From Corallococcus coralloides DSM 2259 (GTDB lineage: Bacteria > Myxococcota > Myxococcia > Myxococcales > Myxococcaceae), in contig NC_017030.1 in NCBI RefSeq assembly GCF_000255295.1, positions 7,352,328-7,416,327 of the forward strand: a stretch of DNA of 64,000 nt, given 5' to 3'. This document shows, in pieces, positions 3,403 through 50,629 of this stretch (the first letter of the stretch is position 1; each line of letters begins with the position of its first letter). Under the pieces are notes generated by a model. That model was not told where the DNA came from, searched no databases, and saw only the letters and a list, made by a program, of their open reading frames with translations. A program made the position numbers and the translations under genes.

Positions 3403-4743
3403 ATGGCGACCTCCCCTTCCGACGCCCCGTCCCCGCTGGCCGCTCCCCGTCCGCTGTCCGCCCGGGATATCCGAACCCTGGGGCTGGCGGCGCTGGGGGG
3501 CGCGCTGGAGTTCTATGACTTCATCATCTTCGTGTTCTTCACGGCGGTGATGGGGAAGCTGTTCTTCCCTCCGGAGACAGCGGACTGGCTGCGGCAATTG
3601 CAGACGTTCGGCCTGTTCGCGGCGGGGTACCTGGCGCGTCCGTTGGGCGGCATCGTGATGGCGCACTTCGGGGACCGGACCGGGCGCAAGCGGATGTTCA
3701 CGTTGAGCGTCTTCCTGATGTCGGTGCCCACGCTGTGCATGGGCCTGTTGCCCACGTTCGCCACGGCCGGGTACGCGGCGCCGCTGCTGCTGCTCACGCT
3801 GCGGCTGCTCCAGGGCGCGGCGGTGGGCGGCGAGGTGCCGGGCGCGTGGGTCTTCGTCTCCGAGCACGTGCCGGAGCGCCGCGTGGGCCTGGCGTGCGGG
3901 ACGCTCACCTCCGGGCTCACGCTGGGCATCCTGTTGGGCTCGCTGGTGGCCACGGCGGTCAACACCGCCTTCACGCCGGAGCAGGTGCTGGCGTACGGCT
4001 GGCGATTTCCCTTCGTGGTGGGCGGCGTGTTCGGCTTCTTCGCCGTGTTCCTGCGCCGCTGGCTCCAGGAGACGCCCGTCTTCGAGGAGATGCGCCAGAA
4101 GAAGGCGCTCGTGCGCGAGCTGCCGCTCAAGGCCGCGCTCCAGGGCCACGCGCCCGCCGTCGTCGTGTCCATGCTGTTCACCTGGGTGCTCACCGCGGGC
4201 ATCGTGGTGGTCATCCTGATGACGCCCACGCTGATGCAGCAGCTGCACGGCATCCCGCCCGCGAAGGCGCTGGCGGCCAACAGCGTGGCCACGCTCACGC
4301 TCACGGTGGGCTGCATCTGCTACGGGCTGCTCGCGGACCGGCTGGGGCCCACGCGGGCCATGGCCATCGGCTCGGGGATGCTGCTCGTCGCCGCGCAGCT
4401 GTTCTACCGGGGCGTGGCGAGCGCGCCGGAGCACCTGGTGCCGCTCTACGCGGGCGTGGGGTTCTGCGTGGGCGTGGCCGGCGTGGTGCCCGCGGTGATG
4501 GTGCAGGCCTTCCCTCCGGCGGTGCGCTTCTCCGGCCTGTCGTTCTCCTACAACGTGGCGTACGCGCTGTTCGGTGGCCTCACGCCGCTCGCCGTCACGC
4601 TGGCCTTGAAGCAGAGCCCGCTCGCGCCCGCGCACTACGTCTCCGCGGTGTGCGCGGTGGGACTCGTGGTGTCTCTCCTGCTCTTCCGGGGCTTCAGCGC
4701 CCGCACCGGCATTCCGGACGAACATCCCGCGCCGTCGCGCTGA
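3403..4743 (+). CDS. MFS transporter of the metabolite:H+ symporter (MHS) type
   Basis: A 446-residue polytopic membrane protein with about twelve hydrophobic segments. It resembles ProP/citrate/dicarboxylate symporters. Residues near 35-50 (GGALEFYDFIIFVFF) match the MHS N-terminal signature. GDRTGRKRMF, near residue 90, is the MFS loop 2-3 motif, and RLLQGAAVGGEVPGA is the TM4-5 motif. Substrates in this group are small organic acids or osmolytes such as proline and betaine; the sequence does not decide which. It is divergent from the kinase gene across a short AT-richer gap and monocistronic, followed by a hairpin at 4768-4788. The ATG at 3403 is the first in frame. Confidence 0.88.
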   Translation: MATSPSDAPSPLAAPRPLSARDIRTLGLAALGGALEFYDFIIFVFFTAVMGKLFFPPETADWLRQLQTFGLFAAGYLARPLGGIVMAHFGDRTGRKRMFTLSVFLMSVPTLCMGLLPTFATAGYAAPLLLLTLRLLQGAAVGGEVPGAWVFVSEHVPERRVGLACGTLTSGLTLGILLGSLVATAVNTAFTPEQVLAYGWRFPFVVGGVFGFFAVFLRRWLQETPVFEEMRQKKALVRELPLKAALQGHAPAVVVSMLFTWVLTAGIVVVILMTPTLMQQLHGIPPAKALAANSVATLTLTVGCICYGLLADRLGPTRAMAIGSGMLLVAAQLFYRGVASAPEHLVPLYAGVGFCVGVAGVVPAVMVQAFPPAVRFSGLSFSYNVAYALFGGLTPLAVTLALKQSPLAPAHYVSAVCAVGLVVSLLLFRGFSARTGIPDEHPAPSR

Positions 4744-4767
4744 CGCCCGGTGGGACGGCTGCCAGGC

Positions 4768-4788
4768 GGCCGGTGGTGTTGACCGGTC
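4768..4788 (+). terminator. Terminator-like hairpin after the MHS transporter
   Basis: The arms GGCCGGT and ACCGGTC pair over 7 bp (one G:T) around a 7-base loop, 24 bases past the transporter stop. There is no T-tract. The rest of 4744-4974 (231 bases) shows no gene. Confidence 0.3.
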
Positions 4789-4974
4789 GCCGATCCGCCC
4801 GGGGCGTGGAATCACCAGACTGGCTCCCTCTGGGGGTGTCGGCTATGCCACGCAGCCAACACAGGGCGCTTCGGGCATGCCCTGCTCGGCCCTCGTGCCC
4901 ACCTTGTCCCGGCGCGTTCTTCCGAACGGCGGAAGCCCCGCGCGCTTTGCCCTCGCCGTCCGACGGACTCCGGA

Positions 4975-6444
4975 ATGCCCAGCAGCAAGACTCCTCTCTT
5001 CCAGAGCGGCATCCCCAGCTTCGACGTCCTCCTGGGCGGTGGCATTCCTCCGCGCCAGTCCTTCATCGTCACCGGCACGCCGGGGTCGGGGAAGACCGTG
5101 CTGTGCAGCCAGGTGGCCTTCGCGGCCGCGGCGCGCGGCGTGCCCGTGGTCGTGGTCACCGTCACCTCGGAGCCCCACGACAAGCTGATGGAGGCGCTGG
5201 CCACCTTCTCCTTCTTCCAGCCGGAGCTGCTGGGCGAGAAGCTCTTCCTCATCAGCGCCTACTCCGCGCTCAAACGGGGCCCCAAGGAGGCCCGGGAGCT
5301 GATCCTCCAGACGGTGCGCGAGCGCGGCGCGGCCATGCTCTTCATCGACGGGCTGCGCTCCATCCGGGACCTCTGGCAGGACGAGGCCCGGCTGCGCGAG
5401 TTCCTCTACGAGCTGGGCATTGGCCTTGCCGCATGCAACTGCATTGGCCTGTTCACCACGGAGTACCCGCTGGGGCGCTTGATGGAGCTGCCGGAGGCCA
5501 CCACGGTGGACGGCATCGTGGCGCTGTCCGTCCAGCCTCACGGCTCCCGCCGGGTGCGCCGGGTGGAGGTGGTGAAGCTGCGCGGCCGGCCCCACCTCGT
5601 GGGTGAACACCCCATGCTCATGCGCAAGAGCGGCGTGGAGTTCATCCCGCGCCTGGAGGCCGTCCCCATGGAGCTCCGGGACGAGCCGCCCACGCTCAAG
5701 CGCATGGGGTTCGGGCTTCCAGAGCTGGATGCGCTGATGCACGGGGGGCTTCCGGAGCTCAGCACCACGATGCTCGCGGGGAGCATGGGCATTGGAAAGA
5801 CGCTGGTGGCCCTGCACTTCGCCGCGGATGGCGCGCGCAACGGGCAGAAGTCGCTCTTCGTCTCCTTCTTCGATGCTCCGGCCATGCTCCGGGCCCGCGC
5901 CCAGCGCGTGGGACTGGACGTGGCCCCGCTCCTGGACGACGGACGGCTGATGCTGCGCTACCTGCCGCCCATGGAGTTGGAGGCGGACGAGATCATCCGG
6001 GACCTGTTGGATCAGGTGGACGCGCTCGGCGTCCGGCGGCTGGTGCTGGACGGGCTCACGGAGCTGGAGCTGTCCATCCTGGACCCCATGCGGCGGCGCA
6101 CCTTCCTGGCGTCGCTGGCGATGCGGCTGCGCATGCGGGGGGTCACCACCGTGTTCACCCGCGAGGTGTCGAAGATCGTGGGCACGGAGCTGGACTTCAA
6201 CGACGCGCCTGTCGCCAGCCTGGGAGAGAACCTGCTGCTCCTGCGCTACGTGGAGCTGCACGGCCAGATGCACCGCCTGCTGTCCGTGCTCAAGATGCGC
6301 GACAGCGAATACACCGCGGACCTGCGCGAGTTCCAGATCAACAACACGGGCTTGAAGGTGCTCGCCCCGCTGAGCTCCGCCATGGGCCTGCTCACCGGAC
6401 AGGCCCGCCCCCTGGGCACTACCATTGGAGGAGTGGGTGAATGA
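4975..6444 (+). CDS. Two-domain KaiC-like RecA-fold ATPase
   Basis: This 489-residue protein consists of two tandem KaiC/RAD55-type ATPase domains. Domain 1 (about 1-235) opens with SGIPSFDVLLGGGIP and carries Walker A GTPGSGKT (34-41) and a Walker B region (AMLFIDGLRSI). Domain 2 (about 240-470) opens with GFGLPELDALMHGGLP. Its P-loop, GSMGIGKT, is variant, and its Walker B region is RRLVLDGLTELE. The architecture matches KaiC family members outside cyanobacteria; no KaiA or KaiB gene is nearby. The stop overlaps the start of a receiver-histidine kinase gene by ATGA, so the two are translationally coupled and probably work together as a signalling unit. Output and partner are unknown. Confidence 0.85.
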   Translation: MPSSKTPLFQSGIPSFDVLLGGGIPPRQSFIVTGTPGSGKTVLCSQVAFAAAARGVPVVVVTVTSEPHDKLMEALATFSFFQPELLGEKLFLISAYSALKRGPKEARELILQTVRERGAAMLFIDGLRSIRDLWQDEARLREFLYELGIGLAACNCIGLFTTEYPLGRLMELPEATTVDGIVALSVQPHGSRRVRRVEVVKLRGRPHLVGEHPMLMRKSGVEFIPRLEAVPMELRDEPPTLKRMGFGLPELDALMHGGLPELSTTMLAGSMGIGKTLVALHFAADGARNGQKSLFVSFFDAPAMLRARAQRVGLDVAPLLDDGRLMLRYLPPMELEADEIIRDLLDQVDALGVRRLVLDGLTELELSILDPMRRRTFLASLAMRLRMRGVTTVFTREVSKIVGTELDFNDAPVASLGENLLLLRYVELHGQMHRLLSVLKMRDSEYTADLREFQINNTGLKVLAPLSSAMGLLTGQARPLGTTIGGVGE

Positions 6445-7517
6445 GCCTGGTCCTCATCGCGGAGGATGAAGAGGCGCTCCTGGAGGTCTTCTCCGAAGTG
6501 GTGGAGGACCTGGGCCACCGCGTGGTGCGCGCGCACAACGGCGAGGAGGCCCTGCTGCTCGCCCGCACGGAGACGCCGGACCTGGTGGTCAGCGACCACA
6601 TGATGCCGCGCAAGACGGGCATGCAGCTCTTGCACGCCATGCGCTCGGAGCCCACCTTGTCGGACGTGCCCTTCCTGCTCCTGAGCGCGGCGCGGCCGCA
6701 GGGGCGTGAGGCCGCGCAGACGTTCCTCGCGAAGCCGGTGGACCTGTCCACCTTCGAGCAGGCGGTGAGCCAGGCGCTCCAGCACCACCAGGCCGCCCAC
6801 CAGGAGGCGCCCCCCGCCGCGCGCGAGGCCCCCAACGCCCTGAGCCTGGCCCGCGAGGAGATGCTCAACTGGGTGGCGCACGAGCTGAAGACGCCGCTCA
6901 GCTCCGCGCGGCTCAACACGCAGCTGCTCCTGCGCAAGGTGCAGAAGCGAGGCATCGACGACGAGCGCCGCTCCGCGGAGGCCATCCTGCGCCAGCTGGA
7001 CCGGATGAACGGGCTGGTGACGTCCATCCTGGACGCCTCGCGGCTGGCGGATGGGAAGCTGGAGCTGAAGCTTTCGCCCACGGAGCTGACGCCGTTCCTC
7101 CAGGAGTTCGTCCAGGAGTGGCGCGAGCTGCAGCCGGACTTCGACTTCTCCTTCCACGCCCTGGATCCGGTGGAGCCGCTGATGCTGGACGCGGAGCGGC
7201 TGCGCCAGGTGCTCAACAACCTGGTGTCCAACGCGGTGAAGTACAGCGGCACGTCGCGCCACGTCGAAATGGGCCTGACGCTCAACCCGGGCCTCGTCCT
7301 CATCCACGTGCGCGACTGGGGCGTGGGCATTCCCGCCAACGCCCTGCCCCACGTCTTCGACCGCTTCCAGCGCGCGGACGAGGACCGCGGACGAGGCCAC
7401 GGCCTGGGCCTCTTCATCGCCGCCGCGCTCGCGAAGCTGCACGGAGGTTCGCTCTCCGCACGCTCCACCCTGGGTGAAGGCTCCACCTTCACGCTGCGCC
7501 TGCCCCGGAGGAACTGA
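6441..7517 (+). CDS. Hybrid response regulator-histidine kinase (REC-HisKA-HATPase)
   Basis: A soluble 358-residue signalling protein. The N-terminal receiver domain (1-115) has acidic residues E8/D9, phosphoacceptor D52 (VVSDHMMP) and K98. The dimerisation domain carries the H-box WVAHELKTPL with H147. The C-terminal ATPase domain shows the N-box LNNLVSNAVKY, G1 DWGVGIP, F-box VFDRF and G2 GHGLGLF. There is no transmembrane or PAS sensor domain, so the input is probably phosphotransfer to the receiver or contact with the KaiC-like protein encoded by the overlapping upstream gene. No cognate DNA-binding regulator lies next to it. Confidence 0.9.
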   Translation: MSLVLIAEDEEALLEVFSEVVEDLGHRVVRAHNGEEALLLARTETPDLVVSDHMMPRKTGMQLLHAMRSEPTLSDVPFLLLSAARPQGREAAQTFLAKPVDLSTFEQAVSQALQHHQAAHQEAPPAAREAPNALSLAREEMLNWVAHELKTPLSSARLNTQLLLRKVQKRGIDDERRSAEAILRQLDRMNGLVTSILDASRLADGKLELKLSPTELTPFLQEFVQEWRELQPDFDFSFHALDPVEPLMLDAERLRQVLNNLVSNAVKYSGTSRHVEMGLTLNPGLVLIHVRDWGVGIPANALPHVFDRFQRADEDRGRGHGLGLFIAAALAKLHGGSLSARSTLGEGSTFTLRLPRRN

Positions 7518-7611
7518 AGCAGGACTGCACGTTTCCGCCGGAACTCCATCTAAACCAAACAGCTTGGAAGTCCGTGAACACCCGGCGCTCTCGGTGAATT
7601 AGAAAGCGAGT

Positions 7612-8847
7612 GTGTCCACGCCTCCTCCGTCCCGCCTGTCCTCGCTGCGCGTGCTCAGGCACCGCGACTTCGCCCTGCTGTGGAGCGGGGCGGCGCTGTC
7701 CAACATCGGCACGTGGATGGAGGTGCTGGCGCTGGGCGTGTACGTGACGAAGGTCACGGGCCGGGCGGAGTGGACGGGGGGCGTGGCGGCGCTGACGTTC
7801 CTGCCGGCCATCGTGCTGTCGCCGTTGGGTGGCGCGCTGGGGGACCGGTTCGACCGGCGCCGGGCGGTGGGCGTGGGTGCGCTGGTGCAGATGGTGCTCG
7901 CGGGCACGCTGGCGGCGCTGGCCTTCAGCGGAAGGCTGACCGTGCAGTGGGTGGCGGTCATCTCCTTCCTCAACGGCTGCGCGGTGACGCTCTTCACGCC
8001 CGCGTACTCCGCGATGATCGCCGTGTCGGTGCCGAAGGAGGACCTGCACAGCGCGCTCAGCCTCAACGCCGCGCAGAACAACCTGGGCCGCATCTGCGGG
8101 CCCGCGCTGGGGGCGCTCGTCATCGCGCACGCGGACGTGGCCTGGGCGCTGCTCCTCAACACGCTGTCCTTTGGCGCGGTGCTGCTGTCGCTCACGCGGG
8201 TGCGGGCCACCGCCGCGGGGAAGACGGCGGACTTCGGCGGCCTGTGGGCGGGCATCCTGCAGGGCTTCCGCGTGGCGCTCGCGGACGAGGCCCTGGTGGT
8301 GGCGCTGGGCGGCACGCTGGCCATCGCGGTGTGCATCGCGCCCTTCACGGCGCTGGCGCCGGTGATGGCCATCCAGGTGTTCCAGCTGGACGCGGGCGCG
8401 ACGTCGGTGCTCGTCACGTGTCAGGGCGTGGGCTCGCTCCTGGCGGCGCTGAGCGCGGGGGCGCTCGCGGACCGGCTCGGCAAGGGGCGGCTCCTGGAAG
8501 TGGGCCTGCTGCTGATTGGCCCCACGGCGGCGGCGTACTGGCTGTCACCGTCGCTGGCGGTCGCGGCGGTCGCGGTGATGGCCTTGGGCGCGCTGTACAT
8601 GCTGACGCTCACGGGGCTGTCCGCGCTGTGCCTGGCGCGCGTGTCCAACGAGCTCCAGGCGCGCATCGCCAGCCTCAGCGCGATGCTGCTCTTCGTGGGC
8701 TTCACGTTGGGCGTGTGGTTGCAGGGCGCGCTGGGGGACCGCTGGGGCATCCGGTGGGTCACCGCGAGCGCGGCCCTGGGGTTCTTCGTCCTCGCCGTGC
8801 TGTTGCGCGCCTTGCGCTCGCGCGGCTTCGCCGCCTTCGAAGTGTAA
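7612..8847 (+). CDS. MFS exporter, probable efflux partner of the NRPS product
   Basis: A 411-residue permease of the MFS_3/EntS-like group with about twelve hydrophobic segments. The N-terminus is LRHRDFALLWSGAALSNIGTWME, and loop 2-3 carries GDRFDRRRAV. This subfamily exports small molecules, including NRPS-made siderophores and peptides. It lies 12 bases before the NRPS start on the same strand, so export of that peptide or self-resistance is the natural inference. The start is GTG at 7612, the first start in a well-conserved frame. Confidence 0.85.
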   Translation: MSTPPPSRLSSLRVLRHRDFALLWSGAALSNIGTWMEVLALGVYVTKVTGRAEWTGGVAALTFLPAIVLSPLGGALGDRFDRRRAVGVGALVQMVLAGTLAALAFSGRLTVQWVAVISFLNGCAVTLFTPAYSAMIAVSVPKEDLHSALSLNAAQNNLGRICGPALGALVIAHADVAWALLLNTLSFGAVLLSLTRVRATAAGKTADFGGLWAGILQGFRVALADEALVVALGGTLAIAVCIAPFTALAPVMAIQVFQLDAGATSVLVTCQGVGSLLAALSAGALADRLGKGRLLEVGLLLIGPTAAAYWLSPSLAVAAVAVMALGALYMLTLTGLSALCLARVSNELQARIASLSAMLLFVGFTLGVWLQGALGDRWGIRWVTASAALGFFVLAVLLRALRSRGFAAFEV

Positions 8848-8859
8848 CGGAGCCTTCCG

Positions 8860-11800
8860 ATGACGACCTCCTCGCCGGCCACGCCGGGGAAGAAGCGCGC
8901 CCCGCTGCCCCTCGTCTCCCGCGCGCAGGCGCTCCCACTGTCCTTCATGCAGCAGCGCCTGTGGTTCCTGGCGCAGCTGGAGGGCACGAGCGCCACGTAC
9001 AACGTCTACTTCTTCGTGCGGCTGCAAGGGGCGCTGGACGCGGGTGCGCTGGAGCGGGCGCTCCAGGCCGTGGTGGCCCGGCATGAATCGCTGCGCACCA
9101 CGTTCGCCTCCGTGGATGGACAGCCGGTGCAGCGAATCGCTCCAGCGCTGGATGTGCCCCTGCGCGGGGTGGACCTGTCCACGCATGGGGATGCGCGTGA
9201 GCGCGCCCTTCGCGAGCATGCGGAAGCCGAGGCCCGCGGCCCCTTCGACCTGGAGCGCGGGCCGCTGGTGCGGACCACGCTGGCGCGGCTCGCTCCGGAC
9301 GAGCACGCGCTGCTCTTCGTCACGCACCACATCGTCTGCGACGCGGTGTCGCTGGGGTGGATGGCGAACGAGCTGAGCGCGCTCTACACCGCCTTCACGC
9401 GCAGCGAGCCGCCCCGCCTGCCGGAGCTGCCCGCGCAGTACGCGGACTTCGCGCACTGGCAGCGCCAGACGCTCACGGGCGACTTCCTGGAGGCCGAGCG
9501 CGCGTGGTGGAAGGAGCGGCTTTCGGGGGCGCCGCCCGCGCTGGAGCTGCCCACGGACCGGCCCCGCCCGCCGCGCCAGACGTCCCGGGGCGCGGTGTAC
9601 CGCCTGCCCATGTCTCCGGCCCTGGCCACGGGCATCCGCGAGCTGAGCCGCAAGGCGGCCGTCACGCCGTACATGGCGCTGCTTGCGGCGTTCCAGGTGC
9701 TGCTCTTGCGCTACAGCGGGCAGGAGGACCTGGTGGTGGGCACGCCCGTGGCGGGGCGCGGCCGTCGCGAGGTGGAGCGGCTCATCGGCTTCTTCGCCAA
9801 CACGCTGGCACTGCGGCTGGACGCGTCCGGCGACCCGACGTTCCTGGCGCTGCTCGCCCGCGTGCGCGACGTGTGCCTGGGCGCGTACGCGCACCCGGAC
9901 ATGCCCTTCGAACAGCTGGTGGACCTGCTGGTGCCCCAGCGCGACCCCAGCCGCTCGCCGTTGTTCCAGGCGATGTTCGTGCACGTGAACTCGCCGTGGG
10001 CCGCGCTCAAGTGGCCCGGCCTCACCGTGACGGAGGTGGACTTCGAGCCCGGCGTCGCGCGCTTCGACATCACCCTCTTCCTCTACGAGGACCCCAGCGG
10101 CATGGAGGCCCGCTGGGAGTACAACGCGGACCTCTTCGACGAGGCGACGGTGGCGCGCATGGCCGCGCACTACGCGCGCCTGCTGGAGGGCGCCGTCGCC
10201 CGGCCGGAGGCTCCTGTCTCCGCGCTCCCCCTGCTGACGCCGCGCGAGCGGGAGCGCGCGGTGGTGGACTGGAACGACACCTTCGCGGAGGTGCCGGTGC
10301 GCTCCGGCGTGCACGCCCTCTTCGAGGACAGCGTGCGCAGGAGCCCGGACGCGGTGGCGGTGCGCTTCGGGGATGCGCACCTGACGTACGCGGAGCTGGA
10401 GGCCCGGGCGAACCGGGTGGCCCATGCGCTGAGGGCGCGCGGCGTGACACCGGACACGGCGGTGGGGCTGTGCGTGGACCGCTCGCTGGAGCTGGCGGTG
10501 GGGGTGCTGGGCATCCTCAAGTCGGGGGCGGCCTACTGCCCGTTGGATCCGGCCTATCCGCCAGAGCGGCTGGCGCTGATGCTCCAGACGTCGCGCGCGA
10601 AGGTGCTCGTCACGCGGCGCTCGCTGGCGTCCGGCCTGCCGGAGGACGGCGTGGAGCGGCTGTTCCTGGAGGACGACCCTGGCACGCCCGCGACAGCGCC
10701 CGAGCCCGTGGGAGGGCCGGACACGCTGGCCTACGTCATCTTCACGTCCGGCTCCACGGGCGTGCCCAAGGGCGTGGCGATGCCGCACCGCCCGCTGCTC
10801 AACCTCATCCAGTGGCAGGTGCGCCGCTCCGCCGCGCCCCGGGGGCGCACGCTCCAGTTCTCCGCGCTGAGCTTCGACGTGTGCTTCCAGGAGATGCTGC
10901 CCACCTTCGCCGCGGGCGGAGAGCTGGTGCTCATGCCGGAGGACACGCGGCGCGACGGCCGGGCCCTGCTCACGCTGATGCGCGCGTATGGCGTGGAGCG
11001 CATCTTCCTGCCCTTCGTGGCGCTCCAGCACCTGGCGGAGGTGGCGGACGCGGAAGGGCTGGTGCCCACGTCACTGCGGGAGATCAACACCGCCGGCGAG
11101 CAACTGCGGATGACGCCCGCGCTGCGCAGGCTGCTCCACGCGCTGGACGGGTGCGTGCTGGACAACCACTACGGCCCCACGGAGACCCACGCGGCCTCGG
11201 CGCACGTGCTCAAGGGAAACCCGGATGCATGGCCGGACCTGCCGCCCATCGGCCGCACCATCACCAACGCGCGGACGTACCTGCTGGACGCGCGCGGCGA
11301 GCCGGTGCCGGTGGGCGTCGCGGGCGAGCTGTTCATCGGCGGGGCGGGGCTGGCGCGAGGCTACCTGCACAGGCCGGACCTGACGGCGGAGCGCTTCGTG
11401 CCGGATCCGCTGAGCCCGCACCCGGGCGCGCGGATGTACCGCACCGGTGACTTCGCCCGGTACCTGCCGGACGGCACGCTGGAGTTCCTGGGCCGGCGCG
11501 ACGCGCAGGTGAAGCTGCGCGGCTACCGCATCGAGCTGCCGGAGGTGGAGGCGGCGGTGGCGAAGCTGCCGGGCGTGAAGGACGTGGCGGTGGTGGCCCG
11601 TGAGGACTCGGCCCGGGGCAAGCACCTGGTGGCCTACGTGGTGACGCAGCCAGGGGCGGCAGTGGATGGAGGGGAACTCAAGGCGGCGCTTCGCGAGCGG
11701 CTGCCGGAGTACATGGTGCCTGCGGCCTTCGTGCTGCTGGAGGCGTTCCCGCTCACGCCCAGCGGCAAGCTGGACCGCCGCGCCCTGCCGGCCCCGGACG

Positions 11801-14800
11801 ACGACGCGGAAGCAGCCCGGGACTTCGTGGCCCCGCGCACGCCGATGGAGACGGAGGTGGCGGCCGTCTTCGCCTCGCTGCTGCAACTGCCGCGCGTGGG
11901 CGCGCACGGCCACTTCTTCGAGCTCGGAGGCCACTCGCTCCTGGCGACGCAGGTGACGTCGCGGCTGCGCGACCGGCTCCAGGTGGACCTGCCCGTGCGC
12001 GCGCTGTTCGCCTTCCCCACCGTGGAGGAATTGGCGGAGCACCTCGCCTCGCTGAAGCCGGAGGTGGGTCAGGGCGCGGAGCCGCCGCTCCTGCCGCGCC
12101 CACTTGGAGAGACCCCGCCCCTGTCCTTCGCGCAGGCGCGCCTGTGGTTCCTCACCCGGATGGATCCGGACGGGTTCTCGTACAACCTGCCCTGGTTCAC
12201 GCGCTGGACGGGCCCCCTGGACGCGGACGCGTTGCAGCGGAGTCTTCAGCGTCTGGTCCAGCGTCACGAGGCGCTGCGCACGACCTTCGTGGAGCACCAG
12301 GGCCAGCCGGTGCAGCGCATTGCTCCGGCGCTGGACCTGCCCCTGCGCCGCGAACAGGTGACCTCGCCGGAGGCACTTACGCTCCGGACAGAAGACATTG
12401 CTTCGCCGCTGTTCGTACCTCTCCATCGCGAGCAGGTGACCTCGTCAGAAGCGCTCATGCGTCGGGCGGAGGCGGAGGTGCGCCGTCCGTTCGACCTCGC
12501 CGAAGGTCCCCTGCTGCGCGCGACGCTGGTGCGCGTGGGTGACGGGGACCATGCCCTGCTCATCACGCTGCACCACATCATCTGCGACGGCTGGTCGCTG
12601 GGTGTGATGGAGCGCGAGCTGACGGCGCTCTACCGCGAGGAAACGGGTGGATCCGCGGCGGAGCTTCCCGCGCTGCCCCTCCAGCCTGCGGACTTCGCGC
12701 GCTGGCAGCGCCTGGCGTGGGTCGGATCGACGGTGGATGAGCGGCTCGGATGGTGGAAGGCCCGACTCCAGGATGCGCCTCCTGCCCTGATGCTGCCCAC
12801 GGACCTGCCGCGTCCGGCGGTGCAGACCTTCGAGGGCGCGCACCTCGCATGGAAGGCCTCGCCCGCGCTGTCCCGGGCCGTGGAGGCCCTGGGCCAGCGC
12901 CACGGCGTGACGCCCTTCATGTTGCTGCTGGCGGGCTTCCACGCCCTGCTCTCCCGCTACAGCGGGCAGGACGACCTCGTCATCGGCGCGCCGCTCGCGG
13001 GCCGTCAGCGGCAGGAACTGGAGGGGCTCGTCGGCTTCTTCATCAACACGGTGCCCTTGCGGCTCACCGCGACCCGGGACACGAGCTTCCACGACCTGGT
13101 GGTGCTCGCGCGCGACGTGACGCTGGAGTCGTTCGCCCACCAGGACCTGCCCTTCGAGCAGCTGGTGAACGCGCTCCAGCCCGAGCGCGACTCCAGCCGC
13201 GCGCCGCTGTTCCAGGTGATGTTCGTCCTGCAGAACGCCGGAGGTGCTCCAGCGCGGGCCCTGCCGGATCTGGCCGTGGAGCCGCTGGATGTGGAGACGG
13301 GGATGTCGAAGTTCGACCTCACCCTCTTCGCGCAGGAAGCCCAGGAGGGCCTGGGCTTCCTCTGGGAGTACAACACCGCCCTCTTCGAGGAGGCGACGGT
13401 GGCGCGCATGGCCGCGCACTACACGCGCCTGCTGGAGGCCGCCGTCTCCGACTTCGAACGGCCCCTCTCCCGCATCCCGCTGCTCTCCGAGGACGAGCGC
13501 CAGCAGTTGCTGGTGTCCTGGAATGACACCCAAGCGGATTATCCGCGCGATGCGTCCCTGCCCTCCCTCTTCGAAGCGCAGGCCGCGCGCGCGCCGCACG
13601 CCATCGCGGTGGCGTTTGAAGGCAGTCACCTGACGTACGCGGAGCTGGACGCACGCGCGAACCAGCTCGCGCATCACCTGCGGGGGCTGGGCGTGGGCGC
13701 AGGCACCCCGGTGGGCCTGTGCACCGGCCGCTCGCTGGAGATGGTGGTGGCCACGCTGGCCATCCTCAAGGCCGGTGGCGCCTACGTCCCGTTGGACCCG
13801 TCCTACCCTGCAGAGCGCCTCCTCTTCATGGCCCGGGACACGCGGCTGCCGGTGCTGCTCGTGCAGCCGGGGCAGGAAGAGAAGCTCGCGGCCTTGGAGG
13901 CGCGGGTGGTGGTACTGGAGCCGTCGTGGCATCCGTTCGCGCGGGAGTCCACGCAGGCGCCGCGCATCCACGTGCCTCCCGAGGCGCTGGCCTACGTCAT
14001 GTACACGTCCGGCAGCACCGGCCGTCCCAAGGGCGTGTGCATCCCGCATCGGGGCGTGGTGCGGCTGGTGACGGGCGCGAACTACGCCCGGTTCGGGCCG
14101 GAGGAGGTGCTCCTCCAACTGGCGCCCATCTCCTTCGACGCGGCGACGCTGGAGCTGTGGGGCGCGCTGCTGCACGGCGCGAAGCTGGTCGTCTTCCCGG
14201 CGCACCCGCCGGCACTGGAGGAACTGGGTGCGACGCTGGAGCGCGAGGGCATCACCACGCTGTTCCTCACCACGGCGCTGTTCGAGCAGATGGTGATGGC
14301 GCAGCCCCGCGCGCTCGCGAGCGTGCGGCAGGTGTTGACGGGCGGAGACGTGATGTCCCCGGTGGCCGCGCGGAGACTTCTGGAAGAGGGCCAGCTCATC
14401 GTCAACGCCTACGGCCCCACGGAGAACACGACCCTCTCCACCGCGCACCGGCTGACCGTCCCCGCGGATGCGCGAGCCCCCATTCCCATTGGCCAGCCCA
14501 TCGCCAACTCGCAGGCCTACGTGCTGGACGCGCTGGGCGCCCCGGCCCCCGTGGGTGTGGCGGGTGAGCTGTACGTGGGAGGTGCTGGTCTGGCGTGGGG
14601 ATACCTGCACCAGCCCGCGCTGACGGCGGAGCGCTTCGTTCCGCATCCGTTCAGCACCACGCCAGGAGCGCGGCTGTATCGCACGGGAGACCGCGCGAGG
14701 TGGCGCGCGGACGGCGTGCTCGATTTCCTCGGCCGGAACGATTCGCAGGTGAAGGTGCGCGGCTTCCGCATCGAGCCGGGAGAAATCGAAACCGCCCTCA

Positions 14801-17800
14801 AGGACTCGGAGGGCGTCACGGACGCGGTCATCGTCGTGCGCGAGGACGTCCCAGGCGACAAGCGCCTGGTGGCCTACGTCGTCGGCGCGGAGGTGGAGCA
14901 AGTCGCGCTGCGCACCCGCCTCGTCGCGAAGCTGCCGGGGCACATGGTGCCCTCCGCCATCGTGAAGCTGGAGCGGCTGCCGCTCACGCCTTCGGGCAAG
15001 GTGGACCGCAAGGCACTGCCCGCACCCGACGCGAGCGGGCGCAAGGACACCTACGTCGCGCCGAGAGAGGGCTGGGAGTCCCTGGTCGCGGAGCTGTGGG
15101 CGCCCCTCTTGAACGTGAGCCGCGTGGGCGCGCACGACAACTTCTTCGAGCTGGGAGGCCACTCGCTCCTGGCCACGCGCGTGGTGTCGCGCCTGCGGGA
15201 CGTGCTCCAGCAGGACGTCCCCGTGCGCCTGCTCTTCGAAGCACCCACGGTGGCAAGGTTCGCCGAGCGCCTGGATGCATTGAAGAAGGGAGGGCATGGG
15301 CCGCCGACGCCCCCCATCGTCGAGGTGTCGCGCGAGCAGCCGCTGCCGCTGTCCTTCGCGCAGCAGCGGCTGTGGTTCCTCGCGCGGCTGGATCCGGAAG
15401 GGTACGCGTACAACGTGCCCTTCTTCTTCCAGTTGGAGGGGCCACTGGATGCCCGCGCGCTGGAGGCCGCGCTGGAGGCGCTCGTCCAGCGCCACGAAGC
15501 CCTGCGCACCACCTTCTCCGAAGCGCACGGCCAGCCCGTGCAGCACATCCGTGTGCATCAGCCCCTGACGCTCGCGCTGGAGGAGGCCTCGGAGGATGCG
15601 CTCCGTCAGCGTGCGGAAGCGGAGGTGCGCAAGCCCTTCGACCTGGAGCATGGCCCTCTCGTGCGTGCCACGCTGGTGCGCACCGCGCCGGAGCGTCACA
15701 CGCTGCTGCTGGTCATGCACCACATCGTCTGTGACTTCTGGTCCATCGACATCCTGGTGCGTGAGCTCAAGGCCCTCTATGCCGCCAGCCTGCGGCACGA
15801 CTCCCCGGCCCTGCCCCAGCTTCCCGTGCAGTACCCGGACTTCGCTGCCTGGCAGCGGCAGGTGATGCAGGGGGAAACCCTGGAGGCGCAGCGCGCGTGG
15901 TGGAAGCAGCACCTGGACGGCGCGCCGCCCACATTGGACCTGCCCACGGACCGGCCGCGTCCGCCCGTGCAGTCCTTCAAGGGCCTCCAGTTCTCACGCC
16001 CACTGCCTGCATCCCTCCCCGCCGCCCTCCAGTCGCTGGCACGCGATGCGGGCGTCACGCCCTTCATGCTGCTGCTCGCGGGCTTCCACGCGCTGCTCGC
16101 CCGTCACAGCGGACAGGAGGACATCGTCGTCGGAACGCCCATCGCCGGGCGTGGCCGTCGCGAAGTGGAGAACCTCATCGGCTTCTTCACCAACACCCTC
16201 GCCCTTCGCGTGGACGCCTCCGGCGCGGAGAGCTTCCGCGCGCTGCTGGGCCGCGTTCGCGAGGCCTGCCTCGGTGCCTACGCCCACCAGGACATGCCCT
16301 TCGAACAGCTCGTCGATGCGCTCGTCCCCTCGCGCGACCTGAGCCGTTCGCCGCTGTTCCAGGTGATGTTCGTCTTCCAGAACGCCGGAGCCCCCTGGGA
16401 GCTGCCCGGTGTCTCCGTGCGGGCACTGACCTTCGAGCCCGGCATGGCCAAGTTCGACCTCACCCTCTTCGTGCGCGAGTCGCCCGAAGGCTGGTCGAGC
16501 GCCTGGGAGTACAACACCGCCCTCTTCGACGAGGACACGGTCGCGCGCTTCGCGGACCACTACACCCAGCTCCTCGAAAGCGCGCTCGCGGCACCGGATG
16601 CCCCGCTGGCCACGCTGCCCCTGCTCACCGCAGCGGAGCAACGGCAGCTCGCGCAATGGACGCTCCAGTCAGTGCCCTACCCCGCCGTGCCTGACGTCCA
16701 TGCCTTCTTCGAGGCCACGGCCACGCGCACGCCGGACGCCATCGCGGTGCGCTTCGGTGAGCAGGCACTCACCTACGGGGAGCTGGAGCGCCGCTCCAAC
16801 CAGCTCGCGCACCACCTGCGCCGGCACGGTGTGACCGCTGACGTCCGCGTGGGCATCCATCTGCACCGCTCGCTGGAGCTGGCCGTGGCCGTGCTGGGAA
16901 CGCTCAAGGCAGGGGGCGCCTACGTCCCGCTGGATCCGGCCTATCCACCGGAGCGGCTCACCGCGATGCTCCAGGCGTCGGGGGCGGCGGTGCTGCTCAC
17001 GTCGCGTGCGCTGCGCGGCGTCCTGGCCAGCGGCACCGCGCTGTCGCTGGAGCTCGACACGCAGGCGGACCTCCTCGCCCGTGAGTCCGACGCGCGTCCA
17101 GACCCCGTGGGCAACGCACAGGCGCTCGCCTACGTCATCTTCACCTCCGGCTCCACTGGCACGCCCAAGGGCATCGCCATGCACCGCGAGGCGCTGGTGA
17201 ACCTGCTCCACTGGCAGCTGGGGGACTCGGTAGCGCCCGGGGCGCGCACGCTCCAGTTCTCCGCGCTGAGCTTCGACGTGTCCTTCCAGGAGCTGTTCGC
17301 GACCTGGGCCGCGGGCGGCGAGCTGGTGCTGCTCACCGACGAGGTCCGCCGCGATGCAAGTCAGCTCCTCGCGCTGCTGGAGGGCGCGGGCATCGAGCGG
17401 TTCTTCATGCCCTTCGTCGCGCTCCAGAACCTGGCGGAAGTGGCCGAGCGCGAGGGCACCTTCCCCACGCGCGTCCGGGAGATCATGGTCGCGGGCGAGC
17501 AGCTGCGCATGACACCCGCGCTCCGCCGCTTCATGAAGCGCACGGGCGCCGTGCTGCACAACCACTACGGGCCCTCCGAAGCCCACGCGGTGACGTCGCT
17601 GTCGCTGAAGGGCGACCCGGCGGCGTGGCCGGACCTGCCCTCCATTGGTAAGCCCCTGAGCAACGTGGCCATCCACGTGCTGGACGCGCACCTGCGCCCG
17701 GTGCCACGAGGCGTGACGGGTGAGCTGTACGTGGGCGGCGTCCAGGTCTGCCGCGGCTACCTGGAACAGCCCGGCCTCACCGCCGACCGCTTCATCCCCG

Positions 17801-19245
17801 ACCCGAACAGCCCCACGCCGGGAGGCCGGCTGTACCGCACGGGCGACTGGGCCCGGTTCCTGCCGGACGGCACGCTGGAGTACCTCGGCCGGCGCGACGC
17901 GCAGGTGAAGGTGCGTGGCTTCCGCATCGAGCTGGGAGAAATCGAAGCGGCGCTGGCGCAGCACCCGTCGGTGCGGGACTGCATCGTCGACGCGAGGGAC
18001 GACGGCAGCGGCCAGAAGCGGTTGGTGGCCTGGGTGGTGGGCGCCGCCGGGAAGTCACTGGACGTCGGCGCGCTGCGGAGCTTCCTCCAGCAGCGGCTGC
18101 CGGAATACATGGTGCCCGCGCGCTGGGTCCCGCTGGAGCAGTTCCCACTGACGCCCTCGGGCAAGGTGAACCGCAAGGCATTGCCCGCGCCCGAAGGAGG
18201 CCGTGAAGCCACGCGGGCCCTGGTGGCGCCCCGGACGCCGCTGGAGCTGCGGCTCGTGCGCATCTGGGAGGAGGTGCTGGGCGTGCATCCCATTGGCGTG
18301 CGCGACAACTTCTTCGAACTGGGTGGGCACTCGCTGCTGACCTTGCGGTTGCAGTCCGCCATCCGAGCCGGGCTGGGCCGGCCGCTGCCCGTGGCGGCGC
18401 TCTTCCAGAACGCGACCGTGGAGCACCTGGCGGGCCTGCTCCGTGACGACGCCGCGCCGTGGACGCCCCTCGTCGCGATCCAGGAGGGACAGGAAGGCGT
18501 GCGTCCCTTCTTCTGCGTCCACGCGGTGGGAGGCAACGTCGCGCCCTACGCGGAGCTGGCACGTGCGTTGGGGCCGAAGCAGCCCTTCTACGGACTCCAG
18601 GCCCGCGGCCTGGACGGCGCGGAGCCCCCCTGCGAATCCATTCCGCAGATGGCGGCCCTCTACGTGCGCGCGATACGCGAGGTCCAACCGCACGGCCCCT
18701 ATCTGCTGGGCGGCTGGTCCATGGGCGGCAGCGTCGCGTGGGAGATGGCCCACCAGCTGCGGCGCGAAGGCGAGACGGTGGCGCTGCTCGCGCTGCTGGA
18801 CACCTCCGCGAGCCTGCACTCGGGCAACCCGGAGGACGCGAACGCGAAGGCGCGTTTGAGCGCGATGTTCCTGGAGGATCTGCTGCGCGCCTCGGGCCAG
18901 CCGCTGCCGCCGAGCGAAGGGCTCTCCCCCCACCAGTGGATGGAGGCGCTGGAGCAGGCCAGCCAGCCCCTGCTCGCGGCGGATCAGCCGCTGCGCGAGA
19001 TGCGCCACGCATTCGAGGTCCACCTGCACGCGGCCTGGGTCTACGCACCGCCTCCGGCCAGCGGCCCCTTCACCGTGTTCGAAGCGGAGGACTCACGCTG
19101 GGACCACGGCTGGGCCGCCTACGCGCCCGGCGGGCTGGACGCGCACCCGGTGCCCGGCGACCACTACTCCTTCCTGAAGCCACCCCACGTCCAGGTGCTG
19201 GCCGACAGGCTGCGCGACGCGCTCGCGAAGGCCCAGGAGCCCTGA
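8860..19245 (+). CDS. Three-module non-ribosomal peptide synthetase with terminal thioesterase
   Basis: A 3461-residue assembly line, C-A-T-C-A-T-C-A-T-TE. Condensation motifs: HHIVCDA (H156, C1), HHIICDG (about 1238, C2) and HHIVCDF (about 2287, C3). Adenylation cores begin near 508, 1590 and 2637, each with TSGSTG. The phosphopantetheine serines (GGHSL) lie near 1026, 2105 and 3158. The thioesterase (about 3200-3461) has GWSMGG (S3287), LLDTS and GDHYS (about H3434). Reading the specificity pocket by eye gives D-V-Q-F-N-A-H-A-A for A1 and D-V-Q-F-M-A-H-A-V for A3, both close to proline codes, and D-A-L-F-L-G-A-T-L for A2, a hydrophobic residue. There is no epimerisation or methylation domain and no MbtH gene. 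An N-terminal C domain implies acylation of the first residue or an upstream synthetase elsewhere. The product is unknown. Confidence 0.95.
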   Translation: MTTSSPATPGKKRAPLPLVSRAQALPLSFMQQRLWFLAQLEGTSATYNVYFFVRLQGALDAGALERALQAVVARHESLRTTFASVDGQPVQRIAPALDVPLRGVDLSTHGDARERALREHAEAEARGPFDLERGPLVRTTLARLAPDEHALLFVTHHIVCDAVSLGWMANELSALYTAFTRSEPPRLPELPAQYADFAHWQRQTLTGDFLEAERAWWKERLSGAPPALELPTDRPRPPRQTSRGAVYRLPMSPALATGIRELSRKAAVTPYMALLAAFQVLLLRYSGQEDLVVGTPVAGRGRREVERLIGFFANTLALRLDASGDPTFLALLARVRDVCLGAYAHPDMPFEQLVDLLVPQRDPSRSPLFQAMFVHVNSPWAALKWPGLTVTEVDFEPGVARFDITLFLYEDPSGMEARWEYNADLFDEATVARMAAHYARLLEGAVARPEAPVSALPLLTPRERERAVVDWNDTFAEVPVRSGVHALFEDSVRRSPDAVAVRFGDAHLTYAELEARANRVAHALRARGVTPDTAVGLCVDRSLELAVGVLGILKSGAAYCPLDPAYPPERLALMLQTSRAKVLVTRRSLASGLPEDGVERLFLEDDPGTPATAPEPVGGPDTLAYVIFTSGSTGVPKGVAMPHRPLLNLIQWQVRRSAAPRGRTLQFSALSFDVCFQEMLPTFAAGGELVLMPEDTRRDGRALLTLMRAYGVERIFLPFVALQHLAEVADAEGLVPTSLREINTAGEQLRMTPALRRLLHALDGCVLDNHYGPTETHAASAHVLKGNPDAWPDLPPIGRTITNARTYLLDARGEPVPVGVAGELFIGGAGLARGYLHRPDLTAERFVPDPLSPHPGARMYRTGDFARYLPDGTLEFLGRRDAQVKLRGYRIELPEVEAAVAKLPGVKDVAVVAREDSARGKHLVAYVVTQPGAAVDGGELKAALRERLPEYMVPAAFVLLEAFPLTPSGKLDRRALPAPDDDAEAARDFVAPRTPMETEVAAVFASLLQLPRVGAHGHFFELGGHSLLATQVTSRLRDRLQVDLPVRALFAFPTVEELAEHLASLKPEVGQGAEPPLLPRPLGETPPLSFAQARLWFLTRMDPDGFSYNLPWFTRWTGPLDADALQRSLQRLVQRHEALRTTFVEHQGQPVQRIAPALDLPLRREQVTSPEALTLRTEDIASPLFVPLHREQVTSSEALMRRAEAEVRRPFDLAEGPLLRATLVRVGDGDHALLITLHHIICDGWSLGVMERELTALYREETGGSAAELPALPLQPADFARWQRLAWVGSTVDERLGWWKARLQDAPPALMLPTDLPRPAVQTFEGAHLAWKASPALSRAVEALGQRHGVTPFMLLLAGFHALLSRYSGQDDLVIGAPLAGRQRQELEGLVGFFINTVPLRLTATRDTSFHDLVVLARDVTLESFAHQDLPFEQLVNALQPERDSSRAPLFQVMFVLQNAGGAPARALPDLAVEPLDVETGMSKFDLTLFAQEAQEGLGFLWEYNTALFEEATVARMAAHYTRLLEAAVSDFERPLSRIPLLSEDERQQLLVSWNDTQADYPRDASLPSLFEAQAARAPHAIAVAFEGSHLTYAELDARANQLAHHLRGLGVGAGTPVGLCTGRSLEMVVATLAILKAGGAYVPLDPSYPAERLLFMARDTRLPVLLVQPGQEEKLAALEARVVVLEPSWHPFARESTQAPRIHVPPEALAYVMYTSGSTGRPKGVCIPHRGVVRLVTGANYARFGPEEVLLQLAPISFDAATLELWGALLHGAKLVVFPAHPPALEELGATLEREGITTLFLTTALFEQMVMAQPRALASVRQVLTGGDVMSPVAARRLLEEGQLIVNAYGPTENTTLSTAHRLTVPADARAPIPIGQPIANSQAYVLDALGAPAPVGVAGELYVGGAGLAWGYLHQPALTAERFVPHPFSTTPGARLYRTGDRARWRADGVLDFLGRNDSQVKVRGFRIEPGEIETALKDSEGVTDAVIVVREDVPGDKRLVAYVVGAEVEQVALRTRLVAKLPGHMVPSAIVKLERLPLTPSGKVDRKALPAPDASGRKDTYVAPREGWESLVAELWAPLLNVSRVGAHDNFFELGGHSLLATRVVSRLRDVLQQDVPVRLLFEAPTVARFAERLDALKKGGHGPPTPPIVEVSREQPLPLSFAQQRLWFLARLDPEGYAYNVPFFFQLEGPLDARALEAALEALVQRHEALRTTFSEAHGQPVQHIRVHQPLTLALEEASEDALRQRAEAEVRKPFDLEHGPLVRATLVRTAPERHTLLLVMHHIVCDFWSIDILVRELKALYAASLRHDSPALPQLPVQYPDFAAWQRQVMQGETLEAQRAWWKQHLDGAPPTLDLPTDRPRPPVQSFKGLQFSRPLPASLPAALQSLARDAGVTPFMLLLAGFHALLARHSGQEDIVVGTPIAGRGRREVENLIGFFTNTLALRVDASGAESFRALLGRVREACLGAYAHQDMPFEQLVDALVPSRDLSRSPLFQVMFVFQNAGAPWELPGVSVRALTFEPGMAKFDLTLFVRESPEGWSSAWEYNTALFDEDTVARFADHYTQLLESALAAPDAPLATLPLLTAAEQRQLAQWTLQSVPYPAVPDVHAFFEATATRTPDAIAVRFGEQALTYGELERRSNQLAHHLRRHGVTADVRVGIHLHRSLELAVAVLGTLKAGGAYVPLDPAYPPERLTAMLQASGAAVLLTSRALRGVLASGTALSLELDTQADLLARESDARPDPVGNAQALAYVIFTSGSTGTPKGIAMHREALVNLLHWQLGDSVAPGARTLQFSALSFDVSFQELFATWAAGGELVLLTDEVRRDASQLLALLEGAGIERFFMPFVALQNLAEVAEREGTFPTRVREIMVAGEQLRMTPALRRFMKRTGAVLHNHYGPSEAHAVTSLSLKGDPAAWPDLPSIGKPLSNVAIHVLDAHLRPVPRGVTGELYVGGVQVCRGYLEQPGLTADRFIPDPNSPTPGGRLYRTGDWARFLPDGTLEYLGRRDAQVKVRGFRIELGEIEAALAQHPSVRDCIVDARDDGSGQKRLVAWVVGAAGKSLDVGALRSFLQQRLPEYMVPARWVPLEQFPLTPSGKVNRKALPAPEGGREATRALVAPRTPLELRLVRIWEEVLGVHPIGVRDNFFELGGHSLLTLRLQSAIRAGLGRPLPVAALFQNATVEHLAGLLRDDAAPWTPLVAIQEGQEGVRPFFCVHAVGGNVAPYAELARALGPKQPFYGLQARGLDGAEPPCESIPQMAALYVRAIREVQPHGPYLLGGWSMGGSVAWEMAHQLRREGETVALLALLDTSASLHSGNPEDANAKARLSAMFLEDLLRASGQPLPPSEGLSPHQWMEALEQASQPLLAADQPLREMRHAFEVHLHAAWVYAPPPASGPFTVFEAEDSRWDHGWAAYAPGGLDAHPVPGDHYSFLKPPHVQVLADRLRDALAKAQEP
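12349..12465 (+). repeat. In-frame 26-codon duplication inside NRPS domain C2
   Basis: Two imperfect copies of about 39 bases lie 78 bases apart (12349-12387 and 12427-12465). They encode REQVTSPEALTLR and REQVTSSEALMRR. C1 and C3 have only one equivalent segment before the PFDLxxGPL motif, so C2 carries about 26 extra residues between the N-terminal core and HHIICDG. The first copy and spacer have lower GC than their surroundings. Confidence 0.7.
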
Positions 19246-36197: not shown

Positions 36198-36458
36198 ATG
36201 ACCAAGCACGAGCTGTTCGAGCGCCTGAGCGCCATCCTCCAGGAAACCTTCGACATCGAGCCGGCCCGCATCGTCCCGGAGGCGCGGCTGCACGACGACC
36301 TCGACATCGACAGCATTGACGCCATCGACCTGCTGGTGCGCCTGAAGCCGGTGACGGGCCAGCGCGTTCCGCCGGAAGTCTTCCGCTCCGTGCGCACCAT
36401 CCAGGACGTGGTGGACGCGCTGTACGGTCTGCTCGGCAGCGACTCCGCCGCGGCGTGA
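36198..36458 (+). CDS. Acyl carrier protein 2 of the aryl polyene pathway
   Basis: An 86-residue ACP with phosphopantetheine site LDIDSIDAIDLL (S39). It is separated from ACP 1 by 36 bases and overlaps the membrane protein gene downstream. Both ACPs need a phosphopantetheinyl transferase, but none is encoded in the window. Confidence 0.9.
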   Translation: MTKHELFERLSAILQETFDIEPARIVPEARLHDDLDIDSIDAIDLLVRLKPVTGQRVPPEVFRSVRTIQDVVDALYGLLGSDSAAA

Positions 36459-37006
36459 AGCGTCTGCGTCCGGTGCTGTTGGGGCTCTTGAGCCTCGCCT
36501 ACCCGCCGCTCGTCTATCTGGGCCTGGGCCACTTCGAGCCCCGCTGGATGGCGCTGCCCCTGGCGGCCATGGCGGTGGTGCGCGCGGTGGCCACGCGGGA
36601 GAAGATGTGGCTCGCGGCCGCGGTGGGCGCGCTGGTGCTCGCGGGCTCCAGCATGCTGGGCAACAACGCCCTGCCCCTGAAGCTCTACCCGGTGCTGGTG
36701 AACGGGGTGCTCCTCGCCGTCTTCGCCACCAGCCTGGCCTATCCGCCCAGCGTGATTGAGCGGCTGGCGCGGCTTCGGGAGAAGGACCTGCCGCCGTCGG
36801 GCGTGGCCTACACGCGCCGGGTGACGCAGGTGTGGTGCGGCTTCTTCGTCTTCAACGGCGCGCTCGCGCTCTCCACGGCGCTCTTCGCGAGCGACGCGAC
36901 CTGGGCGCTCTACAACGGCCTCATCGCCTACGGCCTCATGGGCCTGCTGTTCGCGGGCGAGTGGGTGGTGCGGCAGCGGGTGCGCGCACGGCACGCCCAT
37001 GGTTGA
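36455..37006 (+). CDS. COG4648-type membrane protein (ApeG-like)
   Basis: A 183-residue integral membrane protein with about six hydrophobic segments. It has the family blocks LGNNALPLKLYPVLVNGVLLAVFATSL and PPSGVAYTRRVTQVWCGFFVFNG. Homologues occur almost only in aryl polyene and related clusters. Their role is not known, but location suggests assembly or transport of the pigment. The start is GTG, overlapping the ACP 2 stop (GTGA). Confidence 0.85.
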   Translation: MKRLRPVLLGLLSLAYPPLVYLGLGHFEPRWMALPLAAMAVVRAVATREKMWLAAAVGALVLAGSSMLGNNALPLKLYPVLVNGVLLAVFATSLAYPPSVIERLARLREKDLPPSGVAYTRRVTQVWCGFFVFNGALALSTALFASDATWALYNGLIAYGLMGLLFAGEWVVRQRVRARHAHG

Positions 37007-47001: not shown

Positions 47002-47007
47002 CACCCC

Positions 47008-50612: not shown

Positions 50613-50629
50613 TGCCTGGAGACACCGCC

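Follow-up and report, generated by a model that had tools for sequence, protein, structure and literature searches.

A kaiC-like gene and its receiver-histidine kinase neighbour as a putative conserved signalling module of the Myxococcaceae

Homologs of KaiC outside the cyanobacteria are numerous, and most of them have no known job. One is encoded in the stretch of Corallococcus coralloides DSM 2259 DNA analysed here (the window; 64,000 nucleotides, positions 7,352,328 to 7,416,327 of contig NC_017030.1), where a kaiC-like gene on the + strand (4975–6444; product P0001, 489 aa) runs directly into a gene for a receiver-histidine kinase (6441–7517, +; product P0002, 358 aa). The locus raises the question of what ties the two proteins together and in which direction a signal would pass between them. 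A preliminary description of the pair had proposed that the KaiC-like protein may act as the sensor of the kinase. The comparisons reported here indicate that the two genes form a real and strongly conserved signalling module of the Myxococcaceae, which are myxobacteria of the soil, and that the constant partner of the KaiC-like genes is the receiver, not the kinase.

Searches covered 59 genomes of the family and 195 of the phylum. Orthologs, at identities of at least 54%, were present in 46 of the 195 phylum genomes, all of them Myxococcaceae. The 55 ortholog loci that were read (20 + 18 + 17 new) yielded 40 distinct genes once identical ones had been merged; 37 of the 46 phylum-search genomes with an ortholog are covered by this reading, and three more by name only. 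An open reading frame (ORF) for a receiver-kinase followed the kaiC-like gene directly in all 40 distinct orthologs, overlapping it by 4 nt in 38 of them and lying at −1 nt in one and +11 nt in another; a receiver-bearing ORF ended just upstream of the kaiC-like gene in two of the 40. The ATGA start/stop overlap already noted in the window was confirmed at 6441–6444 (+), and since 38 orthologs show an overlap of equal length, it is more than a chance arrangement. Together with a Shine-Dalgarno-like GGAGGAG of putative function inside the kaiC-like gene (6427–6433, +), 7 nt ahead of the P0002 ATG, the overlap fits translational coupling of the two genes. A scan of positions 4700–7700 found no promoter or terminator. 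The preliminary description had looked to conservation of the pair across the Myxococcota. Because a receiver-kinase lies downstream in every ortholog, the objection that the pair is not conserved fails for the Myxococcaceae; in the wider phylum, orthologs at the identity given above were found in this one family only.

Preservation of the pair by general synteny alone was ruled out by 18 named loci, which show at least four different surroundings and have only the pair in common. Nine relatives at 79–92% identity (L057–L065, eight Corallococcus and one Myxococcaceae assembly) all keep the serine/threonine protein kinase and MFS genes that adjoin the pair in the window. A second MFS gene and a nonribosomal peptide synthetase (NRPS) gene are kept in six of the nine; L063 and L064 are without them, and L059 reaches the contig edge first. 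The other nine loci (L066–L074) gave only remote kinase-domain matches to the window's neighbours (33–36%, five loci). Five of these (L067, L068, L070, L071 and L072, from Pyxidicoccus, Myxococcus and one genome labelled Comamonas) share both flanks, three from Myxococcus (L066, L073, L074) are alike on the downstream side, and L069, from Archangium, stands alone. The pair in L070 belongs to a named Myxococcus xanthus strain. The organism label of L072 (BNCN01000003.1, Comamonas sp. KCTC 72670) looks wrong, as the neighbourhood of its ortholog (68% identity) is of the Myxococcus type.

The paralogs indicate which part of P0002 matters to the pairing. The genome that holds the window (about 10.08 Mb, a single contig of 10,080,619 bases) contains four further double-domain KaiC-like genes, each directly followed by a stand-alone receiver. 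When all 101 family-search rows between 331 and 257 bits were taken as the paralog set, a receiver lay directly downstream in 100 of them (gaps from −4 to +36 nt), and in 99 of these 100 loci the receiver ORF carried no kinase. The remaining paralog of the hundred, L041, does have a kinase in that ORF, with the phospho-accepting His replaced by Gln; its KaiC and its receiver, the latter intact, are still there. As a kinase unable to accept phosphate is still retained beside KaiC and receiver, this single case suggests that selection keeps the receiver–KaiC link rather than the kinase output. The phosphorylation site (acidic pair, phospho-Asp, Ser/Thr and Lys) is intact in all 140 partner receivers. 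Functional coupling within the pair, as first proposed, is strongly supported by the complete pairing in the orthologs and by the co-inheritance described below, with the receiver rather than the kinase as the regular partner. The results have no bearing on the redox-state signalling that the preliminary description had also raised.

As a control, the upstream side was considered: a receiver-bearing ORF preceded the paralog in 14 of 101 cases, all of them receiver-kinases that end 58–87 nt ahead of the KaiC match. The order receiver-kinase, KaiC, receiver is accordingly seen in L016 together with 13 paralogous loci, and a copy at 6.54 Mb of the same genome is among this type. Of 21 more distant KaiC-like loci (those fetched at 209 bits or below, plus loci from the KaiB search), three were second copies of genes already included and four (L053–L056) had 55 nt or less visible downstream. 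None of the other 14 genes (L184 with just 215 nt visible) had a receiver match above 20 bits directly downstream; in L185, a kinase frame contains a receiver-like match of 9 bits, 79 nt past the kaiC-like gene. Of the 59 family genomes, 31 had receiver-partnered KaiC-like genes, numbering one to six per genome and five in 13 genomes. Two side observations concern these families. At about 0.293 Mb of the same genome an orphan stand-alone receiver (L233:2801–3280) groups with the KaiC-partner receivers and has no KaiC neighbour, perhaps left behind after loss of the KaiC. In L181, L182 and L184 the KaiC-like matches cover some 700 aa within frames about 780–910 aa long, apparently with three or more RecA-type domains per chain.

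The partners are also inherited together. The distance matrix of the KaiC proteins and that of the receivers correlated at 0.89 over 120 pairs. When the comparison was restricted to pairs of the same genome, which takes out the species tree, the correlation was still r 0.70 (196 comparisons in the 21 genomes that had four or more pairs), a value reached by none of 2000 within-genome shuffles; r was 0.42 over 104 comparisons once the receiver-kinase clade was excluded, and one of 2000 shuffles reached it. The nearest KaiC and the nearest receiver in another genome belonged to the same pair in 83 of the 120. Trees were built by a quick method with SH-aLRT support from hand-chosen subsets (69 receivers; 58 and 50 KaiC proteins, rooted on cyanobacterial KaiC). 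In the KaiC trees the receiver-partnered proteins formed one clade (support 98), L136 included, which was split into a receiver-kinase clade (99–100) and a single-receiver clade (95–99).

This clade extends beyond the family. From 221 plasmid records, 13 were read, chosen by hand from 40 listed. Nine proteobacterial plasmid copies (two from Rhizobium, the others from Geminicoccaceae, Sphingobium, Azospirillum, Caballeronia, Paraburkholderia, Agrobacterium and Cupriavidus) fell in the single-receiver KaiC clade, and all nine had a receiver downstream, within about 45 nt or overlapping. The four copies outside the clade had a PAS kinase (Haloarcula) or a kinase–receiver hybrid (Variovorax, Caballeronia, Sphingobium) instead. 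In other families of Myxococcota 25 genomes contributed 30 loci, among which one gene is split over two loci and one locus ends at a contig edge. A receiver followed immediately, or overlapped in a different frame, in four (L240, L241, L244 and L250), and L263 had a receiver-bearing kinase frame 65 nt downstream. One genome encodes a natural KaiC–receiver fusion of 604 aa (L239:1477–3288). At the remaining loci there was a nearby kinase, or a receiver lying upstream or at a greater distance, or no kinase or receiver was found.

These data bear on the plainest account of the locus, namely that the KaiC-like protein and the receiver-kinase are merely co-transcribed and serve one process with no mutual contact. 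Gene order by itself cannot prove contact, which leaves this account some room; however, the within-genome co-inheritance, the recurrence of the same neighbour across phyla and the existence of fusions, both L239 and those of archaea (PMC5847659), speak against it, and we consider it unlikely. Direct docking of the receiver on the KaiC-like protein, by comparison, we regard as likely.

What the KaiC-like protein could do in such a complex can be judged from its residues. P0001 consists of two fused KaiC-type ATPase domains (two PF06745 stretches in Pfam). Its closest solved structures by sequence are KaiC entries 8zn5 (E 1.9e-52) and 7dy1 (E 5.8e-44), and the 50 listed Foldseek matches of its predicted structure are all KaiC (best E 1.4e-31, TM about 0.65); the model is confident over about residues 5–400 and of low confidence over residues 400–489, the A-loop region. 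Site residues were assessed by alignment to Thermosynechococcus elongatus KaiC across the 40 distinct orthologs. The second P-loop had been described as altered. The P-loop consensus is GxxxxGK[ST], and GSMGIGKT, the Walker A motif of CII (5779–5802, +), fits it and keeps its Lys and Thr in all 40 orthologs, so alteration of this loop was ruled out. The CI motif, GTPGSGKT (5074–5097, +), is equally well kept, its Lys and Thr being present in all 40 orthologs and all 101 paralogs. The Walker B Asp is present in all 40 orthologs in CI and in 39 in CII. Lys224 and Arg226 (S. elongatus numbering), the arginine-finger residues of CI, occur in 40 of 40; Lys457 occurs in 39 and Arg459 in 40. With its ATP-site and arginine-finger residues conserved, P0001 is likely to bind ATP and to assemble into a ring.

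The changes in P0001 lie instead in the catalytic glutamates and the phosphosites. In CI, position 77 is Ser and position 78 Glu in every ortholog. The catalytic Glu318 of CII is replaced in all 40 (Phe in 35, His in four, Ala in one), and position 319 is Asp in 27 and Glu in 13. At the position of Ser431 there is Ala in 37 orthologs and Ser in three, and at that of Thr432 Ile in 23, Met in six, Ser in five, Thr in three, Leu in two and Gly in one. Thirty orthologs therefore have Ser/Thr at neither phosphosite, nine at one, and one at both (Ser-Thr); P0001, with Ala-Ser (6214–6219, +), is among the nine. Both positions are Ser/Thr in seven of the 101 paralogs. Most of the clade thus cannot use the two-site phospho-cycle of KaiC.

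A KaiC-type timer, whether clock or hourglass, would run on autophosphorylation of the KaiC with the kinase as its read-out. Several points can be cited in its favour: the homology to KaiC itself, the Ser that P0001 keeps at the Thr432 position, the one ortholog and seven paralogs with both sites, and the expression of myxobacterial kaiC genes, for which a hypothetical link to fruiting-body rings has been raised (PMC11832031). According to work cited in the same paper, Ser431 alone can suffice for rhythm, and an hourglass has been proposed for a kaiC–histidine kinase pair of Ramlibacter (PMC3164672). However, 37 of 40 orthologs carry Ala at the Ser431 position, three quarters have no phosphorylatable residue at either site, and Glu318 is lost throughout. 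KaiA and KaiB, whose absence had been pointed out beforehand, gave no match each in the 10.08-Mb genome, and P0001 scored far below the cut-offs of the curated clock-KaiC equivalog models TIGR02655 and NF006799 (133.1 against 546.25 and 210.2 against 408 bits). With Glu318 replaced in all orthologs and both phosphosites retained in only one, a phospho-clock driven by P0001 is unlikely, and we consider a timer of either kind very improbable here.

The kinase, in turn, looks complete except for an input domain. On the + strand, Pfam placed the receiver of P0002 at 6441–6791 (Response_reg, residues 4–109, E 8.6e-16; phospho-Asp52 codon 6594–6596), HisKA at 6849–7052 (residues 137–204; His147 codon 6879–6881) and HATPase_c at 7188–7511 (residues 250–357). 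The acidic pair, Asp, Ser and Lys of the receiver are present in 40 of 40 orthologs, as are the His, Glu and Thr of HELKTP and the N and G1 boxes; the F and G2 boxes are present in 39, with one gap. P0002 thus has the features of a two-component histidine kinase, a phospho-His HisKA and a HATPase_c with N, G1, F and G2 boxes. Pfam found no sensor domain besides these three domains, as the preliminary description had read it. The linker between receiver and HisKA, of about 20 residues, has a mean identity of 0.30 versus 0.82–0.83 in both flanking domains, and no extra domain was seen in the predicted model (mean pLDDT only 64). Of 125 receivers listed for the same genome, the protein itself excluded, the six nearest to that of P0002 include three KaiC partners. 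The genome also holds, at about 4.29 Mb, an orphan receiver-kinase 44% identical to P0002 with no adjoining KaiC (L232:3820–4824), in which the phospho-His is Gln; like the KaiC-paired L041, it would be a pseudo-kinase.

A complete kinase that has no sensor of its own and always follows a kaiC-like gene is what would be expected if the KaiC were the sensor. The ring would then read ATP/ADP, dock the P0002 receiver and set the balance of kinase and phosphatase activity, and P0002 would phosphorylate a response regulator encoded elsewhere. Cyanobacterial KaiC likewise acts on kinases such as SasA. Against this stand the 99 receiver-paired paralog loci in which the receiver ORF has no kinase to control, the L041 kinase that lost its His while KaiC and receiver were kept, and the lack of any candidate target neighbour common to all surroundings of the pair. 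The KaiC-like protein as sensor is therefore possible, though in our judgement more doubtful than probable, and control in the opposite direction has at least the same likelihood.

We tentatively favour the reverse direction, in which a non-clock KaiC-like ring and the receiver form one module, the receiver docks on the ring and controls it, and a kinase has become fused to the receiver in this clade; we hold this to be close to an even call. The receiver would be the constant phospho-switch. Three observations favour this role: 99 receiver partners have no kinase or other output that could be seen; archaeal KaiC–receiver fusions are classed as response regulators with enzymatic output (PMC5847659); and L041 kept its receiver without a working kinase. 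In P0002, the fusion of a soluble, sensor-less kinase to the receiver would hold the switch-setting kinase at the KaiC-like ring. P0002 may autophosphorylate at His147 and pass the phosphate to Asp52, as its intact residues would allow. P0001, with its two ATP sites retained, is probably a hexamer, judging from the arginine fingers and the homology to KaiC, and would act through nucleotide-dependent conformation rather than through a Ser/Thr phosphorylation cycle. In a broader version, KaiC-like proteins of the clade with receiver partners would serve two-component signalling generally as an output machine other than a clock, namely a hexameric ATPase switched by a phosphorylated receiver, and one clade would have closed the loop through fusion of the kinase; this seems to us possible but somewhat short of even.

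Several observations weigh against the receiver as switch. The direction of control is an inference from sequence, and a sensor-less histidine kinase needs an input, which this proposal does not name. One paralog, L136, has no downstream receiver. Nearest KaiC and nearest receiver disagreed in 37 of the 120 pairs. L041 fell in the receiver-kinase clade of the KaiC trees, on a long branch flagged by the program. In the receiver tree, the receivers of receiver-kinases could not be grouped with stand-alone receivers with confidence (deep support 15); a single receiver clade was not rejected (AU p 0.148), so that an origin of the P0002 receiver from a single KaiC-partner receiver is neither shown nor rejected. 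Outside the Myxococcaceae the pairing is loose: the eight best loci of other Myxococcota families (L238–L245) comprise three with a receiver, one fusion (L239) and one with a kinase (L238), and in L242, L243 and L245 no receiver, fusion or kinase was found. Finally, the fusion is missing from a 63%-identical relative of L239 in genome G082, and a long frame close to L239 contains a receiver that shares 67% identity with the fused one; separate recruitment of the L239 receiver, from that neighbouring gene, is therefore probable.

As for the rest of the window, a single NRPS-like ORF of 3461 residues occupies 8860–19245, after the MFS gene behind the pair. An NRPS adjoins the pair in six of the 18 named loci, all six from Corallococcus; as the surroundings are of at least four kinds with the pair alone common to all, we judged the link to be incidental. 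Further on, the region 36455–51061 has, by eye and from sequence starts only, the look of an aryl-polyene-type cluster, with genes of the ligase, aromatic ammonia-lyase-like, thioesterase-like, exporter, ketosynthase and ketoreductase kinds.

If the broader version of the favoured proposal is true, KaiC rings would be effectors of receivers as well as clocks. Nearly every member of the family described here gains a named and testable partner in the adjacent receiver. Known systems resemble the pair in different respects. In Myxococcus, the AsgA-type receiver-histidine kinases have a receiver and a kinase and no sensor domain; P0002 is like them in architecture, which is the sole basis of this comparison, and we know of no KaiC link for them. 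The cyanobacterial KaiC–SasA–RpaA clock output also joins a KaiC fold to a histidine kinase. The N-terminal domain of SasA is KaiB-like (PMC3164672), whereas P0002 carries a receiver in a genome where KaiA and KaiB were not found. The same paper, on the Ramlibacter genome, describes three kaiC contexts. In the second (dark blue), kaiC precedes a kinase of the Nt_HK type, as in the co-transcribed Rta_04330/Rta_04340 of Ramlibacter; like the window pair, it consists of a kaiC and one kinase gene with no KaiB, but the kinase N-terminus is only remotely receiver-like (19% identity), whereas the receiver of P0002 is complete, and both positions are phosphorylatable in almost all of its KaiC proteins, against one of 40 orthologs here and Ala-Ser in P0001. 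In the third (black), kaiC is often followed by a receiver gene or lies near a signalling protein, mostly with one or no phosphosite. P0001/P0002 is assigned to this context by its features: it includes a KaiC-like protein, KaiB was not found, most orthologs have at most one phosphosite, and a receiver lies directly downstream. The pair differs in that the window's receiver is fused to a kinase and in that the pairing, frequent there, is near-absolute in the Myxococcaceae.

The KaiC–receiver fusions reported from six genera of Methanosarcinaceae in a survey of archaeal two-component systems, which places them among response regulators whose output domains are enzymatic (PMC5847659), likewise tie a KaiC-type ATPase to a receiver, in archaea and within one polypeptide; the likeness is drawn from their description only. 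For Myxococcus macrosporus, PMC11832031 reports one to seven kaiC genes per myxobacterial genome, the majority with at most one phosphosite; it notes a lack of KaiA and the rarity of KaiB, and uses STRING to connect the kaiC genes with a phytochrome. A receiver partner is not mentioned in the parts covered. Taking myxobacterial kaiC genes for clock genes, as that paper recently suggested for M. macrosporus, calls for caution in light of the family described here. A literature search for "KaiC" together with "single-domain response regulator" returned nothing, which is no proof of absence. KaiC–receiver and KaiC–kinase gene pairs had thus been described in outline (PMC3164672, PMC5847659), and, within the literature that could be searched, our analysis adds to them the near-absolute pairing, the co-inheritance of the partners and a receiver-kinase clade whose KaiC-like proteins have mostly lost their phosphosites.

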